This document shows, piece after piece, positions 52,188 to 58,345 of a stretch of 64,000 nucleotides of DNA. The position numbers were made by a program, and so were the translations under genes. This DNA is from Deltaproteobacteria bacterium (GTDB taxonomy: Bacteria; Myxococcota_A; UBA796; JAFGLY01). The stretch lies in assembly GCA_016927815.1 (NCBI GenBank), contig JAFGLY010000166.1:1-64000 (forward strand), given 5' to 3'. The notes under the pieces are model-generated. The model searched no databases. It had not been told where the DNA came from and saw only the letters and a program-made list of their open reading frames with translations. How positions within the stretch are numbered: the stretch's first letter is position 1; the number at the start of each line of letters is the position of its first letter.

Positions 52188-52309
52188 GGCACCTCCTGTC
52201 CGGGCAAGGCGGACCGGTCCTACGACCGGAGCGTCCTGCGTATTGCCTTCCCGCGTCCGGCGCCGCCCAGCCCATGCCGGCATCCGGGGACGGCGATAGG
52301 CAGGGCGGG

Positions 52310-54043
52310 ATGTTCGTCCTGGGCCTCTCAGCCTTCTACCACGACAGCGCCGCCGCCCTCCTGCGCGACGGCGAGTGGGTGGGCGCCGCGAACGAGGAGC
52401 GGTTCACGAGGGTCAAGCACGATGCCGGCCTTCCGGTCCAGTCCATCCGGTACGTGCTCGCCGAGGCCGGAATCCGAGCCTCGGATCTCACGGCAGTGGC
52501 GTTCTACGACAAGCCGATGCGCAAGTTCGAGCGCCTGATGGCCTCCCAGGTCCACCACTTCCCCCGTGGGGCGCGCTCGCTCCTCCACGGCCTCCCCAAC
52601 TGGGTGACCACCAAGCTCAGGCTCCCAGCCCTGCTCAGGCGGGAGTTCGACTACCGGGGCCCCATCCTCTACGCGGACCACCACCTCTCGCACGCCGCGA
52701 GCGCCTTCTACTGTTCGGGTTGGGAGGAGGCCTCGATCCTCACCGTGGACGGGGTCGGCGAGTGGTCCACCGCCACGTGGGGCACCGGCAGGGGCCTCGA
52801 CATCGCACTCCAGGGCGAGATCCGGTTCCCCCACTCGCTCGGCCTCCTCTACTCGGCGTTCACCTGGTATCTCGGCTTCAAGGTCAACAGCGCCGAGTAC
52901 AAGGTCATGGGACTCGCGCCCTACGGTGAGCCTCGGTACGTGGATCGGATCCGGCAGATGATCCAGGTGGCGCCCGACGGGTCCTTTCGCCTCGACATGC
53001 GCTTCTTTGAGTGGGACCACGCGATGCGGATGTGCAGCCCGTCCTTCGAGGCCCTGCTGGGCCAGCCCCCGCGGTCGCCGGAGGGAGGCCGGCTCGAAGC
53101 CTTCCACAAGGACGTGGCACGCTCCCTCCAGGAGGTCGTGGACGACGTCATGGTTCGTCTCGCCACCGGGATCGTGCAGCGGACGGGGATTCCGCGTCTA
53201 TGCCTGGCGGGGGGCGTCGCCCTGAACTGCGTGTCCAACGGACACATCCTGCGCCGCGCGCCCGTGGAGGACCTCTACGTACAGCCCGCGGCCGGCGACG
53301 CGGGAGGCGCCATGGGATCGGCACTGTGGGCCTGGCACGCGCTCCTCCGGAAGCCTCGCCTCCCTCGGTTGCCCACGGTCTACCTGGGTCCGGGCTTTAC
53401 GGACGTCGAGATCCGGACGGCCCTCGACCACCACGGCGCGGTGTACCGTCGGTGCGAACGGCAGGAACTCCTCGACGCCGTGGCAGACCGCATCGATCGC
53501 AGGCGCGTGGTCGGCTGGTTCCAGGGACGCATGGAGTGGGGCCCGCGGGCGCTCGGTCACCGCTCCATCCTCGCGGATCCCCGCGACCCCGAGATGCGCG
53601 ACACGCTCAACTGGAAGATCAAGAAGCGCGAGGGATTCCGGCCTTTTGCCCCGACCGTGCAGGAGGAGCGGGTCGAGGAGGTTTTCGACCTGGACCGGCC
53701 TTCCCCCTACATGCTGCTGGTCGCCCAGGTGAAGCCCCACATGGCTCTACCGGCCATCACCCACGTGGACGGATCGGCCCGCATCCAGACGATCCGACGT
53801 GACGACGATCCTCTCTACTACGATCTCGTCGAGACGTTCCGCCTGCGGACCGGGTGCCCGGTGGTCGTGAACACCAGCATGAACGTGCGCGGGGAGCCCA
53901 TCGTGTGCACACCCGAGGAGGCCTTCCTGTGCTTCATGCGCACGGCCATGGACGACCTCGCGATCGGCCCTTTCCTCCTGGCACGGGAGGACCAGCCGCA
54001 CCTCCTTCTTCCCGAGCCCGAGGCTGTCTTCGGATTGGACTGA
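52310..54043 (+). CDS. Carbamoyltransferase, NodU/CmcH family
   Basis: 577 residues. Such enzymes move a carbamoyl group from carbamoyl phosphate via carbamoyl-AMP onto sugars, antibiotics or lipids. The N-terminal Kae1-like domain begins GLSAFYHDSAAALL and includes HHLSHAASAFYCSG and DGVGEWSTATWG. The mid-region carries LAGGVALNCVSNG and the C-terminal half QGRMEWGPRALGHRSILADPR, as in TobZ/NodU. Other open frames start 12 codons upstream without a ribosome site. No surrounding sugar or secondary-metabolite genes, so the acceptor (often a surface polysaccharide) is unknown. Confidence 0.9.
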   Translation: MFVLGLSAFYHDSAAALLRDGEWVGAANEERFTRVKHDAGLPVQSIRYVLAEAGIRASDLTAVAFYDKPMRKFERLMASQVHHFPRGARSLLHGLPNWVTTKLRLPALLRREFDYRGPILYADHHLSHAASAFYCSGWEEASILTVDGVGEWSTATWGTGRGLDIALQGEIRFPHSLGLLYSAFTWYLGFKVNSAEYKVMGLAPYGEPRYVDRIRQMIQVAPDGSFRLDMRFFEWDHAMRMCSPSFEALLGQPPRSPEGGRLEAFHKDVARSLQEVVDDVMVRLATGIVQRTGIPRLCLAGGVALNCVSNGHILRRAPVEDLYVQPAAGDAGGAMGSALWAWHALLRKPRLPRLPTVYLGPGFTDVEIRTALDHHGAVYRRCERQELLDAVADRIDRRRVVGWFQGRMEWGPRALGHRSILADPRDPEMRDTLNWKIKKREGFRPFAPTVQEERVEEVFDLDRPSPYMLLVAQVKPHMALPAITHVDGSARIQTIRRDDDPLYYDLVETFRLRTGCPVVVNTSMNVRGEPIVCTPEEAFLCFMRTAMDDLAIGPFLLAREDQPHLLLPEPEAVFGLD

Positions 54044-54132: not shown

Positions 54133-55371
54133 TCAGCCCCTGGCTGCGCCCGTGGCGTGTTCGCCCCGGAGTTCGCCTGAGCCCTCGAGATCGGCCAGGG
54201 AGGTTTCCAGGGCGGCCAAGGGATCGGAAGGCAGGGCCGCCCGAGCCGAGGCGACGGCCCGGGCGGCCGCGGGATCGAGGAAGCGCCCGAGACGGGGCGT
54301 GACGGTCTGGAGGAGGTCGATCGAGGGAAACAGGCCGGCCCGGGCGATGCCCTCGTTCAGGACGATCTCGGTTCCGGCGGTGGGCCGGAAGGCGTCGGCG
54401 AGGGCATCGTCCAACCGGCTCTGAGGGTGCGTGGTCACCGCCGCCACGACCGTCACGGCTCCGGCTCCCTCGAGCCGGCGCGCGGTGGCCAGGAGGCGCC
54501 GGGGTCGAGTGAGCGCACTCGGAGACAGGTCCTGGCCGAGTTCGCCGTTCAACTCGCCGGAGGCTCGGGCCAGCGAGGTCAACGAGTCGACCAGCAGGAC
54601 GACCGAACGACCCGCCTCGGCCAACCGGCGCACGCGCTCGATGGTGATGTCGGCGGCCTGCACGTGGCGAGAGGCATCCTCGTCGAACGTGGTCGCCACG
54701 ACCTCAGAATCCGCGGCCTCGCGGATCTCGGATACCTCCTCGGGCCTGGCGCCGATCAAGAGGAACACCCGCACGATCTCGGGCTGGCCCAGGCGCATCC
54801 CGCGGGCCACCTCCAGGAGGAGGGAGGTGGCACCCGTTCGAGGAGGGGCCAGCACGAGGGCGCGATCTCCCAGTCCCACCGGGGCGAAGCGATCGAGCAT
54901 CCGGCCTCCGGGGCCCCCGCGTCCGAGGTGGAGCGGCCGGTCGGGAGGAAGCGCAGGGAGGTGCTCGAACACAATCGGCCGAGGGCGGACCTCCGGGTCG
55001 ATGCCGTTGACCCGCTCGACCTTGTAGAGGGCCAGGTACCGTTCGGTTTCCTTCGGGGAGCGGACGCGACCCTCCACCACGTCGCCGGTGCGGAGGTGGA
55101 AGCGCCGGATCTGGGAGGGAGAGACATAGATGTCGTCCGCACCCGGCAGGTAGGACGCCGCGGCGGTGCGGAGGAACCCGAAGCCGTCGGGAAGGGTCTC
55201 GAGAACGCCCTCGCCGCGGAACATGGCGCCGCGTTCGAGGCTGTGGGTCAGCACCTGGAACACGAGCTCCTGGCGGGACAGGCTCGTGGGGCGTTCGATC
55301 CCGAAGCGCTCGGCTGCCTGGACGAGATCCGCGGTGGACCGGGAGCGGAGGTCGAGGAGGACGCTGTCCAT
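54133..55371 (-). CDS. Rho-like protein lacking ATPase residues
   Basis: 412 residues, nearly the length of transcription terminator Rho. The N-terminal helical domain and the RNA-binding cold-shock fold are highly conserved (GVLETLPDGFGFLRTA, DDIYVSPSQIRRFHLRTGD). In the motor domain the P-loop PPKAGKT reads PPRTGAT (Ala181 for the catalytic Lys), DERPEEV reads GARPEEV (Gly207-Ala208 for the Asp-Glu pair that activates water), and DSITRLAR reads DSLTSLAR (Ser266). The Q-loop is degenerate and the end of the protein is unrelated. It should bind RNA but not hydrolyse ATP. The frame is intact, and codon use matches the neighbours. It may regulate or poison true Rho. Confidence 0.88.
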   Translation of the reverse strand: MDSVLLDLRSRSTADLVQAAERFGIERPTSLSRQELVFQVLTHSLERGAMFRGEGVLETLPDGFGFLRTAAASYLPGADDIYVSPSQIRRFHLRTGDVVEGRVRSPKETERYLALYKVERVNGIDPEVRPRPIVFEHLPALPPDRPLHLGRGGPGGRMLDRFAPVGLGDRALVLAPPRTGATSLLLEVARGMRLGQPEIVRVFLLIGARPEEVSEIREAADSEVVATTFDEDASRHVQAADITIERVRRLAEAGRSVVLLVDSLTSLARASGELNGELGQDLSPSALTRPRRLLATARRLEGAGAVTVVAAVTTHPQSRLDDALADAFRPTAGTEIVLNEGIARAGLFPSIDLLQTVTPRLGRFLDPAAARAVASARAALPSDPLAALETSLADLEGSGELRGEHATGAARG

Positions 55372-56107: not shown

Positions 56108-56200
56108 GACGAACCTCCTGCAGCGCCGGAATCTCGAGGGGCCTCGGGTTAGGGCTTCGTGCCGATTGACGAGCGCCCTGGGCGCCGCGCAGGGTTCGAC

Positions 56201-58345
56201 ATGGATCCTACGACATCCGACGCCTTTGGGAGGATGCAGGCCCGCGTGGCGGCGCTCTCCCCCCGCGACGCCCCGACCCGCATCTCCGGGCTCAAGCGCG
56301 AGATCGAGCGTCACAACTACCTTTATCACACGTTGGACGCTCCGGAGATCCGCGACGAGGACTTCGATCTCCTGTTCGCGGAGCTCGAGGCCCTGGAGGC
56401 GCGTTTCCCCGATCTGGCGTCCCCGGACAGCCCGACGCGGAAGGTGGGGGGCACGGTGCTCGAGGCGCTCGTGAGCGAGCCCCACGAGACCCCCATGCTC
56501 TCCCTCGACCTCCACTACGTGGACGCCTCGTGGGACGATCCAGACATCCACCCCCACTGGATCCACGTCTTCAACCGGACCCTGCACGAGAACCGGGAGG
56601 GATTTCTGGGGGACGAGATGCCCGAGGTGGTCCGGTTCGTCGCCGAGCCCAAGCTGGACGGTCTGGCCATCGAGTGCCTCTTCCGGGACGGCGCGTTCGT
56701 CAAGGCCCGCACCCGAGGCGACAAGGTCGTGGGGGAGGTCGTCACCCACACGGTCGGGACGGTGCGGAACCTGCCCCGGAGGCTGGCGGGTCCCGCGCCC
56801 GGACTCGTGGTCGTACGCGGTGAACTGGTCCTCCCCAAGGCCGATTTCGGACCCTGGAACGACCGACGGGTGCAGAGGGGCGAAGCGCCGTTCGACAACA
56901 CCCGCAACGCCGCGGCGGGCGTGGTCCGGCAGCTCGACGCCCGCGCCGCCCGGGATGCGCCGCTGCGGTTCTACGCCCACTCCCTGGGTGCCTGGGAAGG
57001 GGAGGGGGAGCCGGACAGCGAGTGGGCCGTGATCCAGGCCTTCGAGGCGTGGGGGTTCGCCACGACCGGGCACGAGCAACCCTGCGAGGGGGTCCGCGAG
57101 GTGATCGACTACGTCCGATCCTACCGCGCTGGAAGGGCAGGGTTCCCGTTCGACACCGACGGCGTGGTCGTGAAGATCGACGACCGCACGTTGCAGCGCC
57201 GGATGCCCGACAAGGAGGGTCGGAGCCCCCGGTGGGCGCGGGCGTTCAAGTTCCACCAGCGGCCCGAGACCACCGTGCTCCGGGCCGTGGAGTTCTCGGT
57301 GGGGCGCACCGGCGCGGTCACGCCGGTGGCCCATCTCGATCCCGTGCGGGTTCACGGGGTCACCGTCTCCCGGGCCACCCTCCACAACGCCGCGCAGATC
57401 GAGCGCCTCGACCTGCGCTTGGGAGACACGGTGGAGGTCGTCCGGGCAGGGGACGTGATCCCTCGGGTCGCCCGGGTGGTGCCGGACTCCCTCCACGCCA
57501 TGCGCCCGCCGATCGTCTTTCCCACCCGGTGCCCCTCCTGCGGCGCACCTCTGGTCCGGGACGTGGACGCATCCACCGGTGAAGCCGATGCCGTGGCTCG
57601 CTGCCCCGACACACTCTCCTGCCCGGCCCAGATCCGGACCACCCTGGAGCACTGGGGCAGCCGCGGCGCCCTGGCCATCGACGGCCTCGGTGAGCGGTTG
57701 GTGGACCAGCTCGTCTCCACGGGCATGGTGGTCCGGCCGTCGGATCTCTACCACCTGGACCGCGACGCCCTCGCGGCCCTGGACCGGATGGGGCCCAGGT
57801 CCGCGGACAACCTGCTCGCTGCCATCGAGGCCAGCAAGAACGCCCCCTTGGGTCGGGTACTCTACGCCCTCGGCATCCGGCACGTGGGCGAGGCCACCGC
57901 GCGTGACCTCGCACGCGCCATGGGCAGCCTCGACCGCTTGATGGCCGCCACTCTGGACGACCTGGCCCAGGTCAAGGCGCTGCGGGGCGATGCAGCCTCT
58001 TCGGTCGCCGACTTCTTCGCCCGGCACGACGTCCGCCAGGAGATCGAGCGCCTGAGGAAGGCCGGGGTTCGGTTCCCGGACGAGATCGTTTCGGTCCCCG
58101 ACCGGACCGAGGGCACCCTGGCGGGCCGGACGTTCGTGCTCACGGGCACACTGTCCGCGCCCCGCGAGGTCTTCGCCGCCCGGATCGAGGCGGCGGGTGG
58201 CCGCGTGGCCGACTCGGTCTCGAAGCGGACGAGCTACCTGGTCTCGGGGGACGCCTCCGGGTCCAAGCTCCAGAAGGCCCTGGACCTGGGCGTACCCGTG
58301 CTGGACGAGGCGGCGCTGCGCGCCCTGCTCGAGGGGATCGAGTAG
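56201..58345 (+). CDS. ligA: NAD-dependent DNA ligase
   Basis: 714 residues from an ATG at 56201; an upstream GTG at 56159 lacks a better site. Seals nicks in DNA replication and repair. Adenylation motif EPKLDG with active Lys151, OB domain, four-cysteine zinc finger (CPSCGAPL...CPDTLSCPAQ), helix-hairpin-helix repeats and a C-terminal BRCT domain (LAGRTFVLTGTLSAPR...LQKALDLGVPVLDE). Complete and typical. An insertion near residue 105-140, before the active site, is slightly longer than in E. coli. Divergent from the helical protein gene. Confidence 0.95.
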   Translation: MDPTTSDAFGRMQARVAALSPRDAPTRISGLKREIERHNYLYHTLDAPEIRDEDFDLLFAELEALEARFPDLASPDSPTRKVGGTVLEALVSEPHETPMLSLDLHYVDASWDDPDIHPHWIHVFNRTLHENREGFLGDEMPEVVRFVAEPKLDGLAIECLFRDGAFVKARTRGDKVVGEVVTHTVGTVRNLPRRLAGPAPGLVVVRGELVLPKADFGPWNDRRVQRGEAPFDNTRNAAAGVVRQLDARAARDAPLRFYAHSLGAWEGEGEPDSEWAVIQAFEAWGFATTGHEQPCEGVREVIDYVRSYRAGRAGFPFDTDGVVVKIDDRTLQRRMPDKEGRSPRWARAFKFHQRPETTVLRAVEFSVGRTGAVTPVAHLDPVRVHGVTVSRATLHNAAQIERLDLRLGDTVEVVRAGDVIPRVARVVPDSLHAMRPPIVFPTRCPSCGAPLVRDVDASTGEADAVARCPDTLSCPAQIRTTLEHWGSRGALAIDGLGERLVDQLVSTGMVVRPSDLYHLDRDALAALDRMGPRSADNLLAAIEASKNAPLGRVLYALGIRHVGEATARDLARAMGSLDRLMAATLDDLAQVKALRGDAASSVADFFARHDVRQEIERLRKAGVRFPDEIVSVPDRTEGTLAGRTFVLTGTLSAPREVFAARIEAAGGRVADSVSKRTSYLVSGDASGSKLQKALDLGVPVLDEAALRALLEGIE

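Follow-up and report, generated by a model that had tools for sequence, protein, structure and literature searches.

The DNA analysed here is a stretch of 64,000 nucleotides (the window) that carries a divergent rho gene. This open reading frame (ORF) starts with ATG and, read directly, spans exactly positions 54133-55371 on the minus strand. The gene, the features of its product discussed below and the neighbouring ligA are located as follows.

54133..55371, minus strand: rho, encoding a putatively motor-dead Rho (412 aa), the genome's only Rho homologue (ORF, profile matches, alignment to E. coli Rho)
54991..55212, minus strand: Rho OB-fold RNA-binding domain, residues 54-127, with conserved primary-site residues (PF07497, 112-116 bits; residue table)
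54826..54846, minus strand: degenerate P-loop PPRTGAT, residues 176-182, in which the Walker A lysine is replaced by Ala181 (alignment)
54748..54753, minus strand: Gly207-Ala208, replacing Asp210 and the catalytic Glu211 of E. coli Rho (alignment)
54574..54576, minus strand: Ser266, replacing Arg269, in DSLTSLAR (alignment to E. coli Rho)
54334..54336, minus strand: Gly346, replacing Arg353 (alignment to E. coli Rho)
54295..54297, minus strand: Pro359, replacing the arginine finger Arg366 (alignment to E. coli Rho)
56159..58345, plus strand: ligA, which ancestrally lies upstream of rho, given as context (LigA, 696 bits)

The encoded protein matches all three Rho domains, PF07498 (Rho_N), PF07497 (Rho_RNA_bind; E=1.2e-32) and PF00006 (RecA-type ATPase), and aligns to E. 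coli Rho with E=2e-85, a similarity far too strong to be due to chance. It scores above the cut-off of the Rho equivalog NF006886 (337.7 bits; cut-off 315) and below that of TIGR00767 (326 bits; cut-off 509). It also passes the cut-off of the NCBI Rho model PRK09376, so that it may easily carry a plain Rho annotation and escape notice. An AlphaFold model built from a 29-sequence alignment (pLDDT 88, pTM 0.86) has a predicted fold close to that of the solved Rho structures in the PDB (TM about 0.87-0.90). The window Rho belongs to a known family and is not a new kind of system.

The two halves of the protein have fared differently. DGFGFLR and YVSPSQIRRF, which an initial annotation of this DNA had described as near-canonical RNA-binding motifs, are both intact, and the residues that contact RNA at the primary site (FFRDYRRKEY) are identical to those of E. 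coli Rho. In the motor, the P-loop reads APPRTGATS where E. coli has APPKAGKTM, with Ala181 at the position of K184; LLIGARPEEV stands for the canonical LLIDERPEEV; and DSLTSLAR stands for DSITRLAR, the Walker B aspartate (Asp265) being retained. Both loops of the secondary RNA site are altered, the Q-loop being shortened to ELNGELGQDL and the R-loop reading HPQSRL rather than DTGSKM. Ala181, Gly207-Ala208, Ser266 and the eroded Q-loop all agree with the initial annotation, to which losses at R347, at R353 and at the arginine finger (R366) can be added.

The same annotation regarded the gene as a paralogue, acting perhaps as an anti-terminator or as a dominant-negative subunit mixed into the true Rho hexamer. 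A search of the whole window genome (4.0 Mb, 97.3% complete) yielded this single Rho and no second, canonical one; two further matches are weak (~20 bits), lie adjacent to each other on another contig and resemble F1-ATPase subunits. Across the class, an OB-domain search found one copy per genome wherever it found any. The gene order ligA-rho-rpmE-prfA-prmC is seen in canonical and degenerate relatives, and the complete set is present in the canonical genome G058 and in many degenerate ones. The window locus keeps the ligA side of this neighbourhood, and rpmE, prfA and prmC are not adjacent to rho in the window. The gene immediately downstream, convergent with rho, encodes a carbamoyltransferase with both Pfam halves (52274-54043, plus strand), and in the closest relative (G001; L047:5445-6707) a DUF1385 protein is inserted between rho and prfA. 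Because the window Rho is the sole homologue in its genome and relatives carry rho at the native locus, it is not a paralogue; by homology and gene order, it is the rho orthologue native to this organism. Mixing as a dominant-negative subunit is ruled out as well, since no true Rho was found in this genome, nor in 56 of the 58 Rho-bearing members of the order, and an anti-terminator directed against Rho would have no object. The third role proposed there, an RNA-binding scaffold, may still apply.

We found a Rho-like gene in 58 of the 63 genomes of the order that were searched. In 56 of these 58, representing 56 species over six families, the gene is degenerate (133 to 463 bits against a cut-off of 509); the active site is normal in the remaining two, which both belong to genus g6. 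In the sister families of the class (f7, f8 and f9; eight genomes), seven genomes carry Rho, in every case canonical (570-731 bits). Two f9 genomes (G069 and G070; L143 and L144) have Rho in two pieces, broken near position 330-340, and in G070 the pieces are ~620 bases apart in a changed frame, through an intein, an insertion or an assembly fault. Degenerate motors recur in dozens of independent assemblies, and the motif changes of the window Rho are therefore not an assembly accident.

For a residue-level view, 53 degenerate proteins (52 of them full length) were aligned and compared with 16 canonical ones. Two to six of the six core ATPase residues (K184, T185, E211, D265, R353 and R366) have been lost in all 52 full-length degenerate proteins, compared with none in any of the 16 canonical sequences. 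The Walker A lysine is absent in 27 of the 29 genera of the degenerate set, R353 is gone from all but one protein, K326 from nearly all and R366 from most. Arginine occupies the Lys184 position in 31 of 53 proteins. Other residues have been retained: Glu211 in 43, Asp265 in 51 of 52 and Arg212 in 52, and genus g8 keeps GKS or GKT together with E211, having lost R353, R366 and K326. Nucleotide binding may thus persist in the relatives that keep these residues. Lys184 and Glu211 are both missing from the window protein and from the relative closest to it.

Loss of the motor appears to have happened more than once. In a NusA-InfB-NusG tree, genus g6 falls inside the order, together with families f5 and f1, and its rho has an intact active site and lies at the native locus; the motor was either lost several times in the order or regained by g6. 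A Rho tree in which g6 joins the degenerate members of f5, its own family, as one clade could not be rejected (AU p 0.148), so the window's order may have had one origin of the degenerate form or several. A clearer case is a second order, which lies in the same phylum and outside the class. It has a canonical Rho in G251 (f49), motors with few losses in G242 and G249, and a range of states in family f30. There, genus g156 has lost E211 (E211A) and retained K184, genus g157 has lost K184 (K184A) and retained E211, genus g97 has retained GK(T/S) with Leu, Met or Val in place of E211, and genus g155 has lost nearly all motor residues; in genus g152, Rho is absent from all 16 genomes searched. DGFGFLR and YVSPSQIRRF are unaltered in all complete f30 OB domains examined. 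Given that g156 and g157 each keep the residue that the other has lost, at least two inactivations must have occurred in the second order, unless a residue was regained. Once the window's order is omitted from the tree, the second-order Rho clusters with the canonical members of that second order. As judged from these residues and trees, motor loss in the second order is independent and proceeded through different residues, and a motor-dead Rho has apparently evolved repeatedly. We also considered a single origin of all degenerate Rho, which the full tree would suggest by joining G107 and G139, from other classes, to the window's order on long branches; this is disfavoured, as without the window's order both cluster with canonical Rho from the order to which they belong.

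Across the degenerate set, F62, F64, R66, D78, Y80 and E108 are invariant and R87, R88, K105 and Y110 nearly so, and OB-domain scores (84-122 bits) resemble those of canonical class members (99-124 bits). We used NusA, which scores alike everywhere (about 400-430 bits for complete matches), as a yardstick of divergence. Relative to NusA distance, and with three canonical pairs for comparison, the motor core (155-320) evolves at a rate of 2.69 in degenerate versus 0.24 in canonical proteins, the C-terminal part at 4.96 versus 0.40 and the OB domain at 1.48 versus 0.73; that is, the motor changes ~11-fold and the RNA-binding domain ~2-fold faster than in canonical relatives. Selection was then estimated by NG86 counting in 14 independent same-genus pairs of the order, kept within genera because GC-rich third positions saturate between families. 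The ratio ω was 0.094 (95% CI 0.075-0.118) for the OB domain, 0.135 (0.117-0.154) for the motor core and 0.273 (0.228-0.329) for the C-terminal part; canonical motor cores gave 0.023 (three pairs). High third-position GC makes dS too small, so these ω values are, if anything, overestimates. By these counts, the RNA-binding domain and the overall Rho fold are under purifying selection in the degenerate group. The initial annotation's idea of a stable, in-frame Rho with a degenerate ATPase and an intact RNA-binding domain is borne out by the open reading frame and by the selection acting on the group, and the purifying selection for which it proposed a test is seen in the order, where ω is well below 1 in same-genus pairs. 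In the window's own family, the sole available pair (two genomes of different genera) gave ω of ~0.64 for the motor and 0.25 for the OB domain. Part of the motor may be near-neutral in this family, and decay may be well advanced in the window protein.

Taken together, these data are best explained by an orthologous rho whose motor has been inactivated and whose product persists as a non-translocating, RNA-binding ring, a reading to which we assign a probability of roughly 0.7. Its core, a selected, motor-dead Rho that binds RNA, seems to us quite probable, slightly more so than the reading as a whole.

Four other explanations were weighed. The first is an RNA chaperone or protector derived from the Rho OB domain and uncoupled from transcription, with the motor domain merely a scaffold. 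A conserved RNA-binding surface next to a lost motor and lost secondary-site loops would fit this role, as would the alteration, in genus g8 and G010, of the NusG residue that corresponds to E. coli I164, which we take to be important for contact with Rho. That residue is nevertheless kept in most of the order, and the gene is still placed near rpmE-prfA, although placement says little about function; we regard this explanation as unlikely, if the strongest of the four. Somewhat less likely still is a transitional relic, in which the cell has given up Rho-dependent termination and the motor is the first part to decay, leaving a protein that has a minor residual role and is heading for complete loss. 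The second order can be arranged as just such a series, from canonical (G251, f49) through few losses (G242, G249) and heavy decay (g155) to no Rho (the 16 g152 genomes); G026, a 97%-complete genome of the window's order, has neither Rho nor an OB domain in our searches; and the motor's rate of change far exceeds that in canonical relatives. Yet within genera ω is only 0.09 for the OB domain and 0.14 for the motor core, and the degenerate gene has been kept throughout those 56 species and six families with near-invariant RNA-contact residues.

A still-working ATPase with an altered active site, in which arginine substitutes for Lys184 and other residues compensate, is improbable. Some E. coli Rho P-loop lysine mutants retain partial activity, and the frequent arginine at this position, the retained Glu211, Asp265 and Arg212 and the GKS or GKT of g8 point the same way; against this, at least two of the six core residues are lost in every full-length member, the losses of R353, K326 and R366 are near-universal to common, and Lys184 and Glu211 are jointly absent from the window protein and its nearest relative. 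That a canonical rho was missed in fragmentary metagenome assemblies, or that sequencing errors created the degenerate one, is scarcely credible: the assemblies are drafts and NusG, expected to be universal, was missed in many, but the degenerate gene has an open, codon-conserved frame that recurs in dozens of assemblies, some of which are 97-99% complete, with one OB-domain copy per genome and the native rho position in relatives.

The window protein shares with canonical Rho (E. coli; TIGR00767, PRK09376) the orthologous gene, domain order, predicted fold and primary site, and in relatives the neighbourhood; it differs in lacking the Walker A lysine, the catalytic glutamate, R269, R353 and the arginine finger, in its eroded Q-loop and R-loop and in falling below the TIGR00767 cut-off. 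Mycobacterium tuberculosis Rho, which has a weak motor, was once proposed to act uncoupled from that motor; it is reported to show ATP-dependent motor activity (PMC4499133), for which the window protein lacks the needed residues. The short-form Rho paralogue (NF041509, paralog_Rho2) and a motor-only second Rho in family f16 are likewise non-standard forms with one half missing, but the f16 protein lacks the opposite half, having a motor with all key residues and no OB domain. This second f16 gene (L333-L336) encodes about 310-350 aa with a basic, RRRKRRRG-type N-terminus in place of the OB domain, and is perhaps the NCBI short-form Rho2. Another genome, G253 (f50), has two Rho-like genes (L331 and contig C79:7967-9067), and in L331 the Walker A lysine is Gln (RAGQT) and the primary-site motifs are changed to DGSGFLR and FVSQSQVKRF. 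Rho-less bacteria, such as cyanobacteria and others, resemble the present case in having no functional Rho motor; there the whole gene is missing (PMC13289151), whereas in the present order selection still maintains the RNA-binding half. Within the phylum (f14, f15, f19, f21, f28 and others), 51 of 190 genomes that are at least 90% complete had no Rho by the Rho and OB-domain models, among them f15 and f19 genomes with a listed completeness of 97-100%, and Rho has apparently been lost completely several times. Text searches of a set of papers that did not extend to the principal Rho diversity surveys turned up no account of a cell whose sole Rho is ATPase-dead.

How could the non-translocating ring act? 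E. coli Rho can join RNA polymerase (RNAP) as an open ring recruited by NusA and NusG, capture nascent RNA at its primary site and inactivate the polymerase (PMC11829017), and a 'stand-by' route has been observed in single molecules (PMC8964686). The window Rho is most likely a ring that binds RNA without translocating. It would not hydrolyse ATP and would capture pyrimidine RNA, specifically C/U-rich, ribosome-free nascent transcripts, through the primary site. Docked on RNAP via NusG and NusA in the stand-by manner, it may pause or stall elongation, or shield the RNA, without pulling on it. The RNAP-docked mode specifically is tentative, and although the loss of the motor and its recurrence rest on sequence evidence, the mechanism is one that we infer. 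Our view of the wider claim is equally reserved: Rho may have a selectable function that needs the RNA-binding ring and not ATP hydrolysis or translocation, several lineages may have been reduced to it independently, and a non-translocating, RNAP-docked ring may regulate or end transcription.

If the sole Rho is motor-dead, transcripts in these bacteria would have to be ended in some other way. Intrinsic terminators were considered as a replacement. In a scan for hairpins followed by U-tracts, based on home-made gene calls and small samples, they were no more frequent than in a Rho-bearing relative, with 0-4% of gene ends in the three degenerate genomes versus 2% in one canonical genome, and pooled fold z-scores and U-tracts from the same small sample gave no clear shift in the degenerate genomes. 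In the usual description, Rho is a motor that ends transcription by ATP-driven translocation, and a translocation-independent route is debated. That a single-copy Rho with an intact RNA-binding part and a wrecked motor is maintained under selection across an order suggests a useful role for Rho that does not depend on the motor. An order whose only Rho has no plausible motor, and in which the grip on RNA is still selected, would be a natural experiment on this debate.
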